Assembly: GCA_903923925.1 (NCBI GenBank)
Contig: CAIXZF010000072.1
Coordinates: forward strand, 62,001-126,000
DNA from: an uncultured Bacteroidales bacterium
GTDB taxonomy: Bacteria > Bacteroidota > Bacteroidia > Bacteroidales > CAIXZF01
DNA: 64,000 bases
Direction: 5' to 3'
The notes beneath the pieces are model-generated. The model was not told the DNA's origin, did no database searches, and saw only the letters and a list, made by a program, of their open reading frames with translations. This document shows, piece by piece, positions 5,872-15,227 of this stretch. A program made the position numbers and the translations under genes. The first letter of the stretch is position 1. The number at the start of each line of letters is the position of its first letter.

Positions 5872-7017
5872 TTAATCTTCATTGTTGTCGTCTGTCTGAA
5901 AGAGGTCGGTAGTTATATGGTCAGCCAATAACATACCCTGTTCTGTAAGGAAGTATATTCCATTGTGAGATTCAAGCAAGCCTTCCGAATAATAGAACCC
6001 GGCCAGATCAACAAACTGATGGTAATATTTGTCTCCGAATCTCTCGCGGATAGAACCGGAATCACATCCTTTATTTGTCCTTAACGAAGTCATCACATAT
6101 TCATTATAAAACTGAACTTCTGTAAGTATTTCTTTTTCGAATTGAAGATTCCCTGAGGAGATTTCTGAACGGTACTGCTCAAGATTAGCAACATTCCATT
6201 GACGGGATATTCCATTGTAGGAATGAGCCGAAGGCCCTAAACCGAGATAGGATTGTCCGGTCCAATACGCTGTATTGTGCCTTGCCTGAAATCCCGTTTT
6301 GCAGAAATTTGAGATTTCGTAATGGTCAAAATCATGTTCTTTGGCCCATTGTTTAAGTAAATGAAAGTGTTCAATTCCAAGGCTTTCGGCAGGTTCTTCA
6401 ACTTTTTTCTTCCTAATAAGCTGATCTAAAGCTGTTTTAGATTCAACGGTGAGCCAGTAAGCAGAAAAATGTTTTATATTAAACTGCTCAAGCTTACTCA
6501 GGTTGTAATCCCATTTAGCGGTTGTTAAGCCAGGTATACCATAAATTAAATCAATACTGAGGTTTGAAATACCGGATTCGTAAGCCATTTTTATACAGGA
6601 TTCAGCCTGTTCTGAAGAATGAACTCTGTTCAGCCAGGTTAGATCAGCATTATGAAAAGATTGTATGCCAATACTTAATCGATTAATCCCTGATGAATAC
6701 AGGCTTTTAAGATAGTTCAGATTTAGATCATCAGGATTGGCTTCCAGTGTTATTTCGGCATCGGGAGATAGAACAAAACACTTACTTATTTCATCAATAA
6801 TCAATTTTAAACCATAAGAATCCATTAAAGAAGGAGTCCCTCCTCCAAAATAAATACTTGTTATTTCTGAACCAGAAAGATAATCTCTCTGTAAGGCTAA
6901 TTCAGTTATGAGGAATTTCTCAAATCCTTTAATGTACTTTTTACTTGCCAATGAGAAAAAATTACAATAATGGCATTTTTGTCTGCAAAACGGTACATGA
7001 ATATATATTCCTGCCAA
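5872..7017 (-). CDS. hemW: Radical SAM heme chaperone HemW (coproporphyrinogen III oxidase-like)
   Basis: 'AGIYIHVPFCRQKCHYCNFFS' CxxxCxxC and 'YFGGGTPSLM', 'RLSIGIQSF', 'DLIYGIPGLT'. Confidence 0.94.
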   Translation of the reverse strand: MAGIYIHVPFCRQKCHYCNFFSLASKKYIKGFEKFLITELALQRDYLSGSEITSIYFGGGTPSLMDSYGLKLIIDEISKCFVLSPDAEITLEANPDDLNLNYLKSLYSSGINRLSIGIQSFHNADLTWLNRVHSSEQAESCIKMAYESGISNLSIDLIYGIPGLTTAKWDYNLSKLEQFNIKHFSAYWLTVESKTALDQLIRKKKVEEPAESLGIEHFHLLKQWAKEHDFDHYEISNFCKTGFQARHNTAYWTGQSYLGLGPSAHSYNGISRQWNVANLEQYRSEISSGNLQFEKEILTEVQFYNEYVMTSLRTNKGCDSGSIRERFGDKYYHQFVDLAGFYYSEGLLESHNGIYFLTEQGMLLADHITTDLFQTDDNNED

Positions 7018-7317: not shown

Positions 7318-7345
7318 GGGGATATTTTTCAATTTTTGCTACTAA
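7318..7345 (+). promoter_or_regulatory. 28-bp element, copy 1 (upstream of sigma factor)
   Basis: GGGGATATTTTTCAATTTTTGCTACTAA; 26/28 identical to 12062-12089. Confidence 0.7.
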
Positions 7346-7929
7346 TGTTGTGGAGTAAGAAAGTACATTATACGGACTTTGAGATAATCGAAGGTTTTCG
7401 CAAGACTGATAATTCAGTTTTGAGTTACGTATATAGTAATTACTTCAGAATTGTAGAAACGTATATTCTTAACAGCGGAGGTAAATCAGAGGATGTTAAA
7501 GACATTTTCCAGGATGGTTTAAGTACCATTTACACGAAAGCCAAGGATCCTGATTTCAAATATAATTGTGCTTTTGGCACGTATTTGTTTTCAGTTTGTA
7601 AAAATCTTTGGCTCTGGGAGTTAAGAAACAGGAATTCGCATCCTGAAATTCTTGGCGATATGATCGATATAATTCCTGATGAAGCTGTTGAATTAGAGGA
7701 TATAGAAATAGTATGGGCAAAAAAGCATAAACTGTTCAGGTATCATTACGATAATCTGGATGCTGTGTGTAAAAAATTGATAATTCTCTTTCTCCAGAAA
7801 GTTCCTTTTAAGGAAATTGCTGAGCAGATGAGTTTTAAAAATGAAATGCACGCCATTCGAAGAAAGTCAAAATGTAAGGAGCAGTTAATAAGAAGAATAA
7901 AAAATGATATGGACTTTAAAAACTTTTAG
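7336..7929 (+). CDS. RNA polymerase sigma factor, sigma-70/ECF-like
   Basis: About 190 aa; region 2-like 'VLSYVYSNYFRIVETYIL..GGKSEDVKDIFQDGL' and 'TYLFSVCKNLWLWELRNR'; region 4-like C-terminus. The track start (TTG 7336) overlaps the 28-bp element, so the true start is uncertain (ATG 7345 or later). Confidence 0.85.
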   Translation: MLLMLWSKKVHYTDFEIIEGFRKTDNSVLSYVYSNYFRIVETYILNSGGKSEDVKDIFQDGLSTIYTKAKDPDFKYNCAFGTYLFSVCKNLWLWELRNRNSHPEILGDMIDIIPDEAVELEDIEIVWAKKHKLFRYHYDNLDAVCKKLIILFLQKVPFKEIAEQMSFKNEMHAIRRKSKCKEQLIRRIKNDMDFKNF

Positions 7930-7931
7930 CA

Positions 7932-8672
7932 ATGAAAACACGCTTAAACTTTAATGAACTGATTGAACAGTATCGTAACGGCTTACTTAACCAGGAAGAG
8001 CGGAAATTTGTAGACAAACTTCAGGAAACGGATCCTGAATTTCAGAAGGAATTTCAACTGCATGTGCACCTTGATTCTGCAATTTTAGACATGGATTTAA
8101 TGAATTTTGAGAAGCAAATAGCTACTATACATAAGGATTACGAAAAGAAGCATTCAATACCTATTTTATGGCGGGTAGCTGCTTCAGTCGCATTTATCAT
8201 AGTTGTTGGTAGCTTGTTTTATTTAACAAATCCTGGTCTGCTTAGATCAAGTCAAAGTCTTGCTGATAATTATTATGAGGTTTATAAACCGCTTTCTGCA
8301 TTCAGATCGGGGGATCAGCCGTCTGATTTATTGCTTGCAGAAGCTTTTGATCTTTTTACGAGGAAAGATTTTTCCAATGCAGCAAATAAATTTAAAAATC
8401 TGCTTAATCTGAATCCATCTAATAACATGGCCCGATTTTACCTGGGAATTTCATTAATTGAAACAGGTAAACCATCAGATGCCATTCCTCTTATGCAGGA
8501 AATTATTCAGCAGAAGGATGTGTTGTTTGGGAATCAGGCTGAATGGTATCTTTCCTTGTGTTTTCTGAAAACGAATGATAAGGCAGAAGCTAAAAAACAT
8601 TTAAAAATCCTTGTAAGCAAAAACAGCCATTACAAAGCTCAGGCACTGAATTTGCTGAAGGAGTTAAAATAA
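7932..8672 (+). CDS. Putative anti-sigma-like membrane protein with extracytoplasmic TPR domain
   Basis: Starts 2 nt after the sigma gene; soluble N-terminus, one TM ('VAASVAFIIVVGSLFYL'), then TPR-like repeats ('FTRKDFSNAANKFKNLLNLNPSNNMARFYLGISLIETGK'). Confidence 0.72.
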   Translation: MKTRLNFNELIEQYRNGLLNQEERKFVDKLQETDPEFQKEFQLHVHLDSAILDMDLMNFEKQIATIHKDYEKKHSIPILWRVAASVAFIIVVGSLFYLTNPGLLRSSQSLADNYYEVYKPLSAFRSGDQPSDLLLAEAFDLFTRKDFSNAANKFKNLLNLNPSNNMARFYLGISLIETGKPSDAIPLMQEIIQQKDVLFGNQAEWYLSLCFLKTNDKAEAKKHLKILVSKNSHYKAQALNLLKELK

Positions 8673-8678
8673 ATACGA

Positions 8679-11600
8679 TCAGAATACCTTCCGGATAATC
8701 GGCAACAACAAGAGAAATAATCCGAGAATGCTGCCAATTATGCCTAAATAATTTGAAGAATGGCCGTCATTGGTAGTGATTGGAGAGACATTGCCAATGT
8801 TTACATAAGCAGCCCAGAAATAAGGGTGAGATCTTAGAGGATCTGCCGTTTTAAGATAGTTCAGTTTAGCCATTCTTAAAGCTTCAATTTTATCTTTACC
8901 CTGAGCTAGGTAGTTGTAAAAATCTTTTATCAGCGAAGAACTTATCTGATCTTCAACAGGCCACAGAGTCATCACTACATCAGGGCATCCTGCATAGTAG
9001 AACCCCCTTGCCAGGCTCATCATTCCTTCGCCCTTGTCCATTTTTCCAACTCCGGTATTGCATGCGCTTAAAACTGCCATTTTAGCTTTAAGCTGCATAT
9101 TAAAAATTTCATATGTATTTAACAGACCGTCATCTCCTTTTTCGGGGATTCCGGTAAATGCCAATTTAGAATACATTGGATTGTTGTTGTCAATTATAGT
9201 ATGCATTGATAAATGCAGTATGTCATAATTCCCAGCAACCTGTTTAAATTTTGTTTTGTTCGCAGATAAATCCGTATACACTTTTCCATTAAAAATATTG
9301 GATACCATTGATGCTTCTTTTCCGGCAAAAGGCAGTGGTTTTAATGCGTCGCGGTAGGTGAATATTCCGGTATTCTGACCTGAAAAAGATTCATATGAAG
9401 GAGCAAATGCTGCAAGACTGGGAAGCTTATTATCCGGTTTTTCCTGTTCTACGAAAAGCAGGTTAGCGGAATATGCGTAGCCAACAGCATTTTTCTTTAT
9501 CAGGTATGGCAGATTAGTAAATTCGGTAACACTTGAAACAGGCGAAGTTAGCAGTACTTCAAAAGGTATGGATGAAAGTTTATCATCCGGAACAATTATT
9601 AATTCTCTGGATGCAATAAAAGGTTCACAGGGTTTAAGGAGATATTGATATAATTGCGAAGAAGCATTAAGGTACGCATTGAATTTCTCAGGTTTTTGCT
9701 CTGTAAAGTCTTTCCCATCAAGATATTTTCTCAAAGAAGATAGCTGACCATCAAAATCAGCTGGTTTGTTTGTCTGAAAAACTTCAAATCTGTCTGTAGT
9801 AGCAAGGAAAGAAAGAATCTTAGTGTCGGTAACTACAAATTCAATGAAAGCTTGTTTTGGAGAAAGCTGGCGGCGAAGATTAGGAATATCAATGCTGTTA
9901 TCATCATATTTCAATGCAAAATAATTTGGATACTCATTTTCATAAAAGCGCACAAGTTGTTCCTGATCCGATTTCAGTTTGAAAATTTCGCCTTCCCAAT
10001 AATTAATCTGGTTTTTATCTGAATTATTCTTTAACAATTCCAGTTGTATTAGGCTCTGGAATGATTCTATACTCTTATTAATTGAAGCTTCTCTTCGAAG
10101 AAGAGTGTCAGGAACACCCCCAAAGTGAAGCGCTTTCTTTTCCTGCAGAGAACTTAGCAAAACAGCTGATTTGCTGAGTTCAGCAAAATTGAAAGCCTTT
10201 TCCTTGTAGTATGAATCGTGAGTTTTTGAATAGAGGTTGAGTGCTGCGAAAATTGCATCATCATAAGTTTCTTTTTCCTGACTTGAAACAAACAGTTTGC
10301 TGTTGTATTCAGAGAAGGAAGTCCTCATTTTATGGATAAGTTTTAAAGCTTGTTCGTAAGCACTTAGTCCATTTTGTAAATTTTCAATTCCTTTATTACC
10401 ATTAGCACCTTCATTTGAAAGTAAGTAGGCTTTCTTCTTTAAGGCACTCAGAAGTTCAGGGCCAAAAAATTTCCCGGAAAGAGAGGGGTTGTCGTAAATA
10501 TTTTCGGAGTAGAAATCTTCAGAAGAAGCAATAATAGCTTTCTGATAATAAGTTATGGCATTTGATGTTTTCCCTTCAGATTCCAGGATATCGCCGAGGA
10601 ACTGATAGCATTTTGAGGTTTCAGGGTACTTTGAGCCAAAGAGCTCAAGATTAATATCAAGAGCCATTTTAATAAGTTTCCTGCCTTTGTTTTCATATCC
10701 ATTTTGGAAGCAGAAAGTACCATAGCTCAGATAATCACGGGCAAGATCAAATGACTGATCGTTACCGGCTTTTACATGTTCAAGAATGGCAAGTTCATAG
10801 TATTTTGATGCCTGCTTTTTATCACCAAGCTGTGAATAACAACCTGCAATACCGCTATGGGTTTTTGCAATCTCATCCGAACTGCAGTCACTTTTGTAAA
10901 TTTCAGCATTCTTATAATGCTGGAGTGCATCAGTATAGTCGGCTTTTTTGTAACTGATAATACCCAGATTATGGTTAATTCTTCCCAGTGAAATTGAATT
11001 ATTTACCTGATCGGATTTTAGCTTGTTAAGTATATAATCGTAGCATGATTCAGCTTTTTCCAGATCCCCCATATTTTCGTACAGAGTTCCTTTGTTGAGC
11101 ATTACATAACTTTCAGTGAGCGGATTGTCGATTTTATTTGTAGCAAAAATATTTGAAGCAAGATCATAGTTGGCAATGGCATCGGAGTAATGTCCGAGCA
11201 GTTGATTTAAATACCCTAATCCCACGTAATGATCTAGTTTATGCTTATCATTACCGGGATAAAGATTTTCAAGAATAGTTCCTGAACCGAGCTGATAGTT
11301 CAAAGCTTTGTTGTAATCGCCTTTTTTTATATAAAGGTTTGCAATATTATACAGGATATCTGCATGCTCATAACCGTTTGAAGCTTTCGTAAAGTTCGTA
11401 AGATTTTCTGCCTTTTCATAATTTGATAAAGCCTCATTATAATTGCCCATTATTGAATACACTGAACCCAGTAAATTATAGGAAAAGATAAGGGAAGTAT
11501 CTTTTTTACCATTCAAACCGATTCGGATATCAATTGATTTTCTGGAAGATTGAATTGCTTTTTCATTATCGGATTCCATCAGCGCAATTGTACCCTGAGT

Positions 11601-12005
11601 TCTGTAAAAATCTGCAAAAACCTCTGAATTCTCTTTTATTTTATTTAAAGCAATTCTCTGCATTTGAGAAAGTGAAGAATGGGCTTTTGGGATATTCCCA
11701 AGTAAGCGGTAACATTCAGCAGAATAAATAAGGCTGCTGGCTGCCTTGATTATTTCATTTTTCTGCAAATAAAGCTCACTTGCCTTATTGAATTGGCTGA
11801 CAGAAAGGTCGATTTTATCGTTAGATAAATTCATTTTTCCCTCTGAAAAATAATCATCGGGGGATGAAAGGTGGATTTTCCGAGCAATTGTGGCTGAATT
11901 TCTCCTGTTAACTTCTTTTTTTATGGCTGCAGGGCCAATAAAAAGCAAGGGTAACAGATAAACCATTAAAAAATAATTTATTTTATATGGTTGGAAAAGA
12001 GCCAT
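8679..12005 (-). CDS. TPR-CHAT domain protein (caspase-like protease), membrane anchored
   Basis: 1108 aa; N-terminal signal/TM, about 10 TPRs, CHAT domain with 'YDILHLSMHT' (His) and 'AVLSACNTGVGKMDKGEGMMSLARGFYYAGCPDVVMTLWPV' (Cys), C-terminal TM 'YLGIIGSILGLFLLLLPIIRK'. Confidence 0.93.
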   Translation of the reverse strand: MALFQPYKINYFLMVYLLPLLFIGPAAIKKEVNRRNSATIARKIHLSSPDDYFSEGKMNLSNDKIDLSVSQFNKASELYLQKNEIIKAASSLIYSAECYRLLGNIPKAHSSLSQMQRIALNKIKENSEVFADFYRTQGTIALMESDNEKAIQSSRKSIDIRIGLNGKKDTSLIFSYNLLGSVYSIMGNYNEALSNYEKAENLTNFTKASNGYEHADILYNIANLYIKKGDYNKALNYQLGSGTILENLYPGNDKHKLDHYVGLGYLNQLLGHYSDAIANYDLASNIFATNKIDNPLTESYVMLNKGTLYENMGDLEKAESCYDYILNKLKSDQVNNSISLGRINHNLGIISYKKADYTDALQHYKNAEIYKSDCSSDEIAKTHSGIAGCYSQLGDKKQASKYYELAILEHVKAGNDQSFDLARDYLSYGTFCFQNGYENKGRKLIKMALDINLELFGSKYPETSKCYQFLGDILESEGKTSNAITYYQKAIIASSEDFYSENIYDNPSLSGKFFGPELLSALKKKAYLLSNEGANGNKGIENLQNGLSAYEQALKLIHKMRTSFSEYNSKLFVSSQEKETYDDAIFAALNLYSKTHDSYYKEKAFNFAELSKSAVLLSSLQEKKALHFGGVPDTLLRREASINKSIESFQSLIQLELLKNNSDKNQINYWEGEIFKLKSDQEQLVRFYENEYPNYFALKYDDNSIDIPNLRRQLSPKQAFIEFVVTDTKILSFLATTDRFEVFQTNKPADFDGQLSSLRKYLDGKDFTEQKPEKFNAYLNASSQLYQYLLKPCEPFIASRELIIVPDDKLSSIPFEVLLTSPVSSVTEFTNLPYLIKKNAVGYAYSANLLFVEQEKPDNKLPSLAAFAPSYESFSGQNTGIFTYRDALKPLPFAGKEASMVSNIFNGKVYTDLSANKTKFKQVAGNYDILHLSMHTIIDNNNPMYSKLAFTGIPEKGDDGLLNTYEIFNMQLKAKMAVLSACNTGVGKMDKGEGMMSLARGFYYAGCPDVVMTLWPVEDQISSSLIKDFYNYLAQGKDKIEALRMAKLNYLKTADPLRSHPYFWAAYVNIGNVSPITTNDGHSSNYLGIIGSILGLFLLLLPIIRKVF

Positions 12006-12061: not shown

Positions 12062-12089
12062 GGGGATATTTTTCACTTTCTGCTACTAA
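12062..12089 (+). promoter_or_regulatory. 28-bp element, copy 2 (upstream of GG-leader peptide)
   Basis: GGGGATATTTTTCACTTTCTGCTACTAA; 26/28 identical to 7318-7345. Confidence 0.7.
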
Positions 12090-12162: not shown

Positions 12163-12321
12163 ATGAAAAACAGGGAAAACGTTCGATTTTTTGAAAATTT
12201 TGTTTCTCAGAGGTTAACAGCTGCTCAATTATTAAGAGTTAAGGGCGGCGATAACAATCCTCCACCTCCACCGAATCCTGATGGACAATTGCCAGGACCA
12301 CACATTCCCCGACCAAAATAG
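12163..12321 (+). CDS. Double-glycine-leader peptide precursor with proline-rich core
   Basis: Manual translation: MKNRENVRFFENFVSQRLTAAQLLRVKGG|DNNPPPPPNPDGQLPGPHIPRPK*; below the track length cutoff; 217 nt upstream of a C39 peptidase ABC exporter. Confidence 0.85.
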   Translation: MKNRENVRFFENFVSQRLTAAQLLRVKGGDNNPPPPPNPDGQLPGPHIPRPK

Positions 12322-12538: not shown

Positions 12539-14728
12539 ATGAAGCGATTTAAACATGTAAAGCAGCATGATGCCAAAGACTGCGGACCAGCATGTCTTCA
12601 GATGATTTCTGCGTTCTATGGCAAGGATTATTCTCTGCAGACGTTTCGGGAAAGATCTTTTATTAACCGGGAAGGCGTTTCAATGCTGGGCATTAGTGAT
12701 GCTGCTGAATCTGTAGGATTTCGTACGATTGGTCTTCATATGGAGATTGGACAGCTAACAGAAGAAGCACCTCTTCCTTGCATAGTTCATTGGAAACAGC
12801 ACCATTTTGTGGTTGTATATGATGCAAAACCCGGAAAATGGGTTAAAGTTGCCGATCCTGCTTTTGGCCTGGTAAAGCTGAGTATTTCAGATTTTGTGGT
12901 TGGATGGACTGGTTCAAACAATTCAGAAAGAAAAGGAATTGCATTGTTGCTGGAACCTTCTCCCGATTTTTATAATCAGCCGGGTGAAACACAACGGAAA
13001 ACGGGTTTCCTTTATCTTCTTCGTTATCTGAAACCTCAGAAAACATTGTACTCGCAGCTTATTCTTGGAATTATTCTGGGTAGTTTTTTGCAGCTTATTT
13101 TCCCATTGCTTACACAATCTATTGTGGATAAAGGTATCGGAAGAGTAGATCTGGATTTTATTTACATTATCCTCATTGCGATGTTTGTTCTGATTCTGAG
13201 CAGGACAGCTATCGATTTTTTGCGGAACAGAATATTGATGCATATGGGATCGCGGATAAATATATTGCTGATATCAGATTTTTTAATCAAGCTTATGCGC
13301 TTGCCTGTTGGCTTTTTCGACAGCAAGCTCACTGGTGATATCATGCAAAGAATCTGGGATCACCAAAGGATTCAGTATTTTCTGACAACAACCTCATTAA
13401 ATATACTTTTTGGAATTTTTAGTTTTTTCGTGTTTTCGATAGTCCTGGTTTTTTACAGTTTTAAAATACTAGCGATATTCCTGTTAGGCAGTCTGTTATA
13501 CTTTCTTTGGATCAGATTCTTTATGAAGAAACGACGTGAACTGGATTATAAGCGATTTTCACGACTTTCAGAAAATCAAAGTACGTTGTTCGAGATTATT
13601 ACCGGTATGCAAGAGATTAGGTTGAACAACTGCGAATATGAAAAGAGAGCAAAATGGGAAAACATACAGGCAGGTCTTTTCAAAATAAATATGAAGAGTC
13701 TGGGGCTTACTCAATATCAGCAAAGCGGTGGGCTTTTTTTTAACGAAAGCAAGAACCTGCTCATTACTTTTGTTTCAGCCTGGTCGGTAATTCATGGTGA
13801 GATGACCATGGGGATGATGGTGGCTGTACAGTACATTATTGGACAGCTTAATGGACCAGTTGATCAGATGATTGGTTTTTTTCAGGCAGCTCAGGATGCC
13901 AGGATCAGCCTTGAGCGCTTCGGCGAATTACAGAATCTGCCAGATGAAGAATCTGCCGATTATCCTAAAAAAACTATTTTGCCTGACAAAATAGATCTGA
14001 ATATCCGGAACCTGACATTTCATTATGAGGGGCCACGGTCGCCAGCTGTTCTCCATAACCTTAATATCGTTATTCCAGAAGGAAAAGTTACTGCTATTGT
14101 TGGGCCCAGCGGAAGTGGAAAGACTACTTTGCTTAAGCTTTTACTAGGGTTTTACGAGCCTGCGGAAGGTGAAATCTGCGTGGGTACATTACCTCTCAGT
14201 GAGGTTAGTAATCGTTACTGGCGAAGCATATGCGGAACCGTTATGCAGGATGGTTTCATTTTCTCCGATACAATTGCCAGAAATATTGCCCCTTCGGGCG
14301 AGAGTATTGATAAGCAGAAATTACTGAATGCTGCAAAAATTGCCAATATCCTTGAATTTGTGAATACCTTGCCTATGGGATTCAATACAAAAATCGGGCA
14401 GGAAGGAAGTGGACTAAGCCAGGGACAACGACAGAGAATATTAATTGCAAGGGCGGTTTACAAGAATCCGCAATTTCTTTTTTTCGATGAGGCCACTAAT
14501 GCCCTTGATGCTGAAAACGAAAGTGTAATAATGAAAAACCTGGCCTCTTTTTATTATGGCAGAACCGTAATAATTGTTGCTCACCGGCTCAGTACGGTAA
14601 AAAATGCTGACCAGATAATTTTACTTGATAAAGGCAAGATTTCAGAATTTGGTAAACATGAGGAACTTATAAAATTAAAGGGATTATATTATAAACTTAT
14701 AAAAAATCAACTGGAACTTGGAGAATAA
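12539..14728 (+). CDS. Peptidase C39-containing ABC transporter (PCAT), bacteriocin/peptide exporter
   Basis: N-terminal C39 domain with 'QHDAKDCGPACLQMI' (Cys), 'CIVHWKQHHFVVVYD' (His), 'VADPAFG' (Asp); ABC TM region; Walker A 'GPSGSGKTT', signature 'LSQGQRQRI', Walker B 'FLFFDEATNALD'. Confidence 0.97.
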   Translation: MKRFKHVKQHDAKDCGPACLQMISAFYGKDYSLQTFRERSFINREGVSMLGISDAAESVGFRTIGLHMEIGQLTEEAPLPCIVHWKQHHFVVVYDAKPGKWVKVADPAFGLVKLSISDFVVGWTGSNNSERKGIALLLEPSPDFYNQPGETQRKTGFLYLLRYLKPQKTLYSQLILGIILGSFLQLIFPLLTQSIVDKGIGRVDLDFIYIILIAMFVLILSRTAIDFLRNRILMHMGSRINILLISDFLIKLMRLPVGFFDSKLTGDIMQRIWDHQRIQYFLTTTSLNILFGIFSFFVFSIVLVFYSFKILAIFLLGSLLYFLWIRFFMKKRRELDYKRFSRLSENQSTLFEIITGMQEIRLNNCEYEKRAKWENIQAGLFKINMKSLGLTQYQQSGGLFFNESKNLLITFVSAWSVIHGEMTMGMMVAVQYIIGQLNGPVDQMIGFFQAAQDARISLERFGELQNLPDEESADYPKKTILPDKIDLNIRNLTFHYEGPRSPAVLHNLNIVIPEGKVTAIVGPSGSGKTTLLKLLLGFYEPAEGEICVGTLPLSEVSNRYWRSICGTVMQDGFIFSDTIARNIAPSGESIDKQKLLNAAKIANILEFVNTLPMGFNTKIGQEGSGLSQGQRQRILIARAVYKNPQFLFFDEATNALDAENESVIMKNLASFYYGRTVIIVAHRLSTVKNADQIILLDKGKISEFGKHEELIKLKGLYYKLIKNQLELGE

Positions 14729-14738
14729 ACTGTAGGCA

Positions 14739-15227
14739 ATGGAAGATTTTAAAGAAATAGAACTTCAGGATGAAGAAATAGATCAGATGCTCAGCCGTCC
14801 GCCTTCATGGATGCTGCGCTGGGGAACGTGGATGGCAATGGCCGTTATTCTCCTTCTATTAGCTTTGGGATGGTTTATTAAATATTCTGATACAGTGGCG
14901 GGTAGTTTTAATTTATCAGGGAATGCCAGTTGCCGGGGAATTGTAAGCGGAGTAATTATCATATCAGATTTCAACAGTAACAATATTGAAATCGGGCAAA
15001 AAGTTGTTTTAAATTTTGCTGATTTTCCTTCAATAGAGTATGGGTTGGTGGCTGCAAAAGTGGATTCTGTTTTAACAGTTCCTGAAAAATCAGCCAAAAA
15101 AATCTATTTTAGTTTTTTTAAAGGGATTCGTAGCGCTAAAAACCGTACAATTCCGTATTGTGAAGGAATGACAGGCAGCGCTAAAATTTTGACTAAAAAG
15201 AAGAGATTTCTCGAGTGGATATTTTAA
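14739..15227 (+). CDS. Miniature HlyD-like membrane fusion protein (apparently lacking lipoyl/coiled-coil hairpin)
   Basis: 162 aa; N-terminus 'LSRPPSWMLRWGTWMAMAVILLLLALGWFIKYSDTV' and C-terminus 'GQKVVLNFADFPSIEYGLVAAKVDSV...EGMTGSAKILTKKKRFLEWIF' resemble the two ends of Bacteroidota HlyD exporters. Confidence 0.8.
   Translation: MEDFKEIELQDEEIDQMLSRPPSWMLRWGTWMAMAVILLLLALGWFIKYSDTVAGSFNLSGNASCRGIVSGVIIISDFNSNNIEIGQKVVLNFADFPSIEYGLVAAKVDSVLTVPEKSAKKIYFSFFKGIRSAKNRTIPYCEGMTGSAKILTKKKRFLEWIF

Follow-up and report, generated by a model that had tools for sequence, protein, structure and literature searches.

In RRNPP systems (Rap, PlcR, Rgg), exported unmodified peptides are read by TPR proteins; these receptors are cytoplasmic, and re-import of the peptide is required. 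To our knowledge, little is known of peptide signaling in Bacteroidota, and bacterial TPR-CHAT proteases have few known roles outside CRISPR. Craspase, a type III-E CRISPR system, is composed of Cas7-11, the TPR-CHAT protein Csx29, Csx30 and CASP-sigma; its Csx30 component, which inhibits an ECF sigma factor, is cleaved by Csx29 (PMC10028731). In Myxococcus xanthus, DdvS acts at the promoter PddvS once the anti-sigma factor DdvA is inactivated (PMC4374960). A review (PMC8999054) notes a group of ECF sigma factors whose genomic context includes CHAT proteins, and the bacteroidetocins are double-glycine (GG) bacteriocins exported by peptidase-containing ABC transporters (PCATs) (PMC6671954).

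Here we analyzed a 64,000-nucleotide stretch of DNA from an uncultured Bacteroidales bacterium (the window), in which a gene for a Pro-rich GG peptide adjoins a PCAT gene. The peptide belongs to a gene module that recurs across Bacteroidales, and this module, its predicted promoter and its predicted export route are well supported by sequence. The module suggests a hitherto undescribed kind of bacterial peptide signaling, in which the exported unmodified peptide is probably the ligand of a loop formed by an ECF sigma factor and a TPR-CHAT protein, a ligand role that we infer. No description of CHAT combined with double-glycine, RiPP or T9SS was found in openly licensed papers, an absence that is not proof.

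The GG peptide gene and its precursor

The peptide gene (12163..12321, + strand, ATG start) was identified by translation and synteny and encodes a GG-leader precursor of 52 aa, exactly the sequence that the original prediction had given. The precursor is composed of a 29-aa leader ending in KGG (12163-12249, +; LTAAQLLRVKGG) and a 23-aa mature core (12250-12318, +; DNNPPPPPNPDGQLPGPHIPRPK). The leader had been described as a GG leader, and its hydrophobic patterning followed by GG was indeed found to be common to an 18-member alignment. The core was likewise as described, with 10 Pro (43% Pro), no Cys, Ser or Thr, and a near-neutral charge that comes to 0 when K/R are counted against D/E. A family-model search gave no Pfam or NCBIfam match above cut-off for the window peptide; TIGR04149 did not match it and gave weak matches in 5 of 18 relatives.

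In its own 4.6 Mb genome the peptide ORF is present in single copy. The original prediction had made its case depend on a conserved KGG ORF in homologous loci, and such an ORF, 42% identical, was found in the one other genome of the family analyzed (the sister genome), between the TPR-CHAT and C39 transporter genes as in the window, with a core that likewise ends in prolines and a lysine. The sister genome also carries an additional 179-aa ORF (L126 11306-11845, +) that separates the peptide from the C39 transporter. Short length and lack of a family match above cut-off would suit a chance or decayed ORF beside an unrelated transporter, a reading to which we give negligible weight against the syntenic ortholog, the family found in about 25 other loci, the ORF's own promoter, and the purifying selection on the core in tandem relatives (see below). 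The window peptide ORF was confirmed as a genuine gene.

Neighboring genes and proteins

The genes of the locus are ordered ECF sigma (+), TM-TPR protein (+), TPR-CHAT (-), GG peptide (+), C39-ABC transporter (+) and short HlyD (+). The original prediction had overlooked the module of ECF sigma, TM-TPR anti-sigma-like and TPR-CHAT genes, as well as the promoter that the peptide gene has in common with the sigma gene. The ECF sigma factor (7345..7929, +) was assigned by a Sigma70_r2 match above cut-off, with TIGR02937 (E=3e-10) below cut-off; its start codon is uncertain, as the promoter abuts the ATG and the longest ORF begins at TTG 7336. The next gene (7932..8672, +) encodes a transmembrane anti-sigma-like protein with an N-terminal helical domain, a TM helix at residues 78-96 and C-terminal TPRs. 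Its structural model (pLDDT 88.9) has TPRs that match solved TPR domains, and no anti-sigma structures were among the PDB matches listed for it. Members of this TM-TPR family gave weak matches to the anti-sigma NCBIfam model NF052375, at E values of 2e-4 to 4e-4 that are below cut-off.

On the opposite strand lies the gene for the TPR-CHAT caspase-like protein (8679..12005, -; PF12770 E=1.8e-58), which has an N-terminal hydrophobic segment and a C-terminal TM helix that ends in basic residues. The two hydrophobic segments suggest that the protein is periplasmic and membrane-anchored. By its domain and its His/Cys dyad (His931/His935 and Cys982, invariant in 25 relatives), it belongs to the TPR-CHAT caspase-like proteases and is a predicted protease. 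Structural matches to its model (mean pLDDT 85) were separase and, as the best, the Craspase TPR-CHAT and the transmembrane anti-sigma factor DdvA, the solved chain of which (cryo-EM 8rot) aligned over about 1000 alignment columns at E=3e-13. When solved structures were searched by sequence, the CHAT half gave no match. Sequence matches of the TPR region included a response regulator aspartate phosphatase (Rap type). Among the proteins scanned no CRISPR parts were met. A phage-defence label was rejected, as PADLOC gave only generic TPR and one weak match.

Downstream of the peptide gene, a PCAT is encoded (12539..14728, +; Peptidase_C39, PF03412 E=3e-31) that is predicted to cleave after the GG and to export the core. 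The earlier reading of the peptide as a C39 substrate is supported, and its cleavage and secretion are predicted. No terminator was found between the peptide and transporter genes, so cotranscription is possible. The last gene (14739..15227, +) encodes a short HlyD-like adaptor of 162 aa, with a TM and the C-terminal part only. Most relatives are 432-442 aa in length, and a second shortened form (L202 13454-13978, to 174 aa) was observed; both are without the central part seen in the closest relatives. This shortening may reflect release into the periplasm instead of through an outer-membrane channel, or decay. As originally claimed, no RiPP maturase lies beside the peptide gene: the sole radical-SAM gene nearby (5875-7017) encodes the heme chaperone HemW, with a score above the HemW cut-off. 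A RiPP with a maturase was rejected on this ground.

A predicted promoter common to the sigma and peptide genes

ECF-type promoters of identical sequence were identified on the + strand before the peptide gene (12062..12088, GGGGATATTTTTCACTTTCTGCTACTA) and the sigma gene (7318..7344, GGGGATATTTTTCAATTTTTGCTACTA). The 27-nt sequence GGGGATATTTTTCANTTTNTGCTACTA has only these two exact matches in the 4.6 Mb genome, and a reversed-sequence control in the same genome gave 0. A third copy with 3 mismatches lies at a contig end in this genome (L249 1501-1527, contig C55), before an ORF that is cut by the contig end. In the sister genome, a GTGGGACATTTT..ATGTTATAA pair precedes both the sigma and the peptide gene, and in other genomes GGTTACCTTTT-N10-GGNATTAATA is often upstream of both, with the CHAT gene left out.

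The promoter was first spotted by eye in the output of an unbiased search for gapped 4-mer motifs, which in itself yielded nothing but A/T runs, and was tested afterwards. In other genomes, its -35 motif was found upstream of 9 of 26 peptide genes, 6 of 10 genes for an alternative secreted partner (see below) and 9 of 32 sigma genes, compared to 0 of 36 CHAT genes in sense orientation and a background of 0.02 per region. A promoter common to sigma and peptide is clear in about 6-7 of the 20 loci tested; the pairwise sigma-peptide test across all 20 was not significant as a group, since many of these loci are without a shared motif. Throughout whole genomes, promoter sites were found at module genes, plus a few more in some genomes. 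In genomes G098, G103 and G023, up to ten GGTTACCTTTT-type sites per genome were detected, several of them preceding unidentified short ORFs, and the regulon of these three appears larger than that of the window genome. Judged by sequence only, the window sigma factor has the autoregulated promoter of an ECF sigma.

Occurrence of the module across Bacteroidales

The module consists of a short Cys-free acidic/Pro-rich GG peptide placed divergently upstream of TPR-CHAT, usually together with an ECF sigma factor and an anti-sigma-like TPR protein that is transmembrane. Two more short GG/Pro peptides beside the same kinds of genes came to light when 393 genomes of the order were searched. When the surroundings of about 60 CHAT-protein relatives were compared, 20 of 59 loci were found to carry a GG ORF on the strand opposite to CHAT, no more than 1.5 kb upstream of it. 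ORFs of this class were present upstream on the same strand in 2 of 59 and downstream in 3 of 61, and block-shuffled sequence gave 0.6 on average. The GG peptides were called by regular expression, and this divergent-upstream enrichment (Fisher p about 2e-5 and 5e-5) comes from a position test that is partly circular, as the leader pattern was shaped by the first examples.

An independent scan by transporter similarity alone revealed a CHAT match in 3 of 80 loci, and both loci with a strong match (L033, L049) have a divergent Pro-rich GG peptide beside CHAT. An orphan C39 bacteriocin as the sole reading was rejected, because the 80 similar transporters are mainly accompanied by longer Cys-bearing GG peptides and the two with strong CHAT matches by Pro-rich ones. 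Genera in which similar transporters were found include Prolixibacter, Draconibacterium and Sunxiuqinia. In a deep CHAT tree, locus labels were clustered, requiring 12 changes compared to 19.8 when shuffled (0 of 500 shuffles were as low).

No GG peptide was seen in the majority of sampled loci with a related CHAT gene, a count that is an upper bound on true absence, as the assemblies are mostly drafts with contig ends inside some loci. CHAT loci without a GG peptide, at least ten of which have a T9SS-sorted protein, indicate that the CHAT protein does not need the peptide. Two short Pro-rich ORFs without a GG leader were also observed at CHAT (L186 5690-5827, -, ...LPDPPPNDPIPNPDEPPKK; L206 10646-10747, -, MSTYELYLKRRMDDPDDPPTIPPPPPPPPPKRY). 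Other members of the class carry GG peptides in tandem whose cores are short and acidic (GGDDPVIDPNNQNEPKKTGGNGNP; L219, L236 and L245, genome G707), and no CHAT gene was found in their 1.5 kb flanks.

Properties of the mature cores

Cores linked to CHAT (26) were compared to 20 GG cores from loci of similar transporters that lack CHAT, both sets being compiled by hand and the former slightly biased to Pro-rich members, since two of its loci came from a similarity search with the window peptide. Cys-free cores made up 25 of the 26 CHAT-linked compared to 4 of the 20 non-CHAT cores (p=7e-8); median Pro content was 18% vs 4% (p=8e-6), median length 18 vs 36 aa (p=2e-6), and Asp or Glu was the first core residue in 19 vs 4. 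Cores differ widely from genome to genome, and the relatives of the neutral window core are mostly net negative. This charge distribution bears on the proline-rich antimicrobial analogy drawn in the original prediction, by which the peptide would inhibit translation. The 43% Pro of the core fits that reading, yet the strong positive charge expected of such peptides is lacking and the promoter and CHAT linkage are left unexplained by it; the analogy was dropped for wrong charge, and we regard it as very improbable.

Tandem copies of the peptide gene occur, up to four in number (L172). Between the tandem pair of L195, 9 core codons are identical and 10 differ synonymously with 0 nonsynonymous differences, whereas 22 codons of the leader differ nonsynonymously. 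Copies 1 and 4 of L172 displayed the same trend, with the core kept better than the leader; in L170, the core showed no such advantage over the leader. Taken together, the comparisons point to constraint on the mature core and not on the leader alone.

An alternative secreted partner

In at least 10 CHAT loci (L160, L163, L164, L165, L167, L168, L171, L175, L179 and L181), the peptide is replaced by a T9SS partner of about 400 aa, encoded directly upstream on the CHAT strand. This protein has carboxypeptidase-regulatory/SdrD_B-like domains and a T9SS sorting domain, with dockerin-like parts in most of the four scanned, and is often under a sigma-type promoter (the 6 of 10 noted above). A C39 gene was present in 20 of 21 peptide-type genomes vs 2 of 10 genomes of the T9SS-partner type (p=5e-5). 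Within the module, the two secreted products seem able to substitute for one another, and the peptide comes with an export route of its own.

Both secreted partners adjoin CHAT and have the sigma promoter, which CHAT itself is without. This arrangement would also fit a role of the peptide, or of the T9SS protein elsewhere, in negative feedback on the CHAT protease, whether as its substrate, its inhibitor or a propeptide-like regulator, and Pro-rich segments would suit a poorly cleaved inhibitor. No cleavage motif was identified that is common to cores of 12-40 aa and partners of 400 aa, and we consider such a role improbable.

Alternatively, the peptide may be made under sigma control as a bacteriocin-like or surface-active effector, with the CHAT/anti-sigma branch sensing stress or competitors without binding the peptide. 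Among the promoter targets found in the window genome, the operon for the peptide and its export is the main one, other modules have in its place a T9SS-secreted surface protein that is likewise promoter-controlled, and tandem copies occur; these points favor an effector. By contrast, the cores are short, acidic to neutral and nearly all Cys-free, no immunity gene was recognized, and the conserved placement is divergent beside CHAT and not within the sigma operon. An effector is, in our assessment, unlikely.

Proposed signaling mechanism

We favor a signaling role for the peptide. Signaling had originally been listed as one of several equally possible roles; it stands, and is now the preferred option in place of one among equals. 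The sequence strongly indicates that the ECF sigma factor drives the twin promoters, and with them both its own gene and that of the peptide. The neighboring C39 transporter would then cut after the GG and export the unmodified Pro-rich core, a step that is well supported. We hold these two steps together to be highly probable. Outside the inner membrane, the core would be bound by the TPR superhelices of the TPR-CHAT protein and/or the anti-sigma-like TPR protein. By sequence and model, the receptor candidates are the latter protein, with its anti-sigma-like domain, TM and TPRs, and the TPR-CHAT protein with its invariant dyad. Binding would alter CHAT protease activity, and the anti-sigma would be cleaved or otherwise inactivated to free the sigma factor. 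The peptide would be the main output and feedback signal of the sigma/TPR-CHAT loop. Against this mechanism count the wide variation of the cores, the CHAT loci without a GG peptide and the many loci in which sigma and peptide have no clear common promoter; in addition, with only the sigma and peptide-export promoters found in the window genome, a pure self-signaling loop would have few other outputs. For the mechanism as a whole, with the peptide as the secreted component of a signaling module of ECF sigma, anti-sigma-TPR and TPR-CHAT, we see about an even chance.

More tentatively, a general route of Bacteroidales surface signaling is possible, in which an exported, unmodified Pro-rich peptide acts on a caspase-like TPR-CHAT protein outside the inner membrane to release an ECF sigma factor, with the T9SS protein as an interchangeable signal. 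If true, this peptide-to-caspase-to-sigma pathway would be unlike two-component or RRNPP peptide sensing. As a candidate ligand, promoter, exporter, protease, anti-sigma and sigma are found in one locus, the questions of Bacteroidota peptide signaling and of TPR-CHAT function outside CRISPR are both directly testable, and the predicted promoter offers an immediate transcription readout.

Comparison with known systems

The window locus resembles Craspase in linking a TPR-CHAT caspase-like protease to an ECF sigma factor and its inhibitor, in the window a candidate one, and Craspase is among the nearest solved structures to the TPR-CHAT model. Craspase is cytoplasmic, RNA-triggered and associated with Cas7-11/CRISPR, whereas the window TPR-CHAT carries hydrophobic segments at both ends, a secreted peptide would take part, and the proteins scanned included no CRISPR part. 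Like DdvA/DdvS, the window locus has an ECF sigma predicted to act at its own promoter, and the solved chain of the transmembrane anti-sigma DdvA matches the TPR-CHAT model; the window locus differs in having separate anti-sigma-like TM and TPR-CHAT genes and, in addition, the GG peptide and C39 transporter.

Similarly to PCAT pheromones and bacteriocins (ComC/BlpC type; bacteroidetocins), the window peptide has a GG-ended leader, an adjoining C39 transporter, a short core and no maturase. It differs in its Cys-free Pro/acid-rich core, sigma-factor promoter and CHAT linkage, and in that no histidine kinase or response regulator was met. The rSAM-modified Bacteroidetes RiPP precursors of TIGR04149 (GG_sam_targ_CFB) have a leader of the same Bacteroidetes GG type; the window peptide differs from them in giving no match to this model, in lacking an adjacent RiPP radical-SAM enzyme and in its Cys-free core. 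Like RRNPP systems, the module combines TPR proteins with a peptide predicted to be exported unmodified, and the window TPR region has a Rap-type sequence match; unlike the cytoplasmic RRNPP receptors, the window TPRs are predicted to lie outside the inner membrane.
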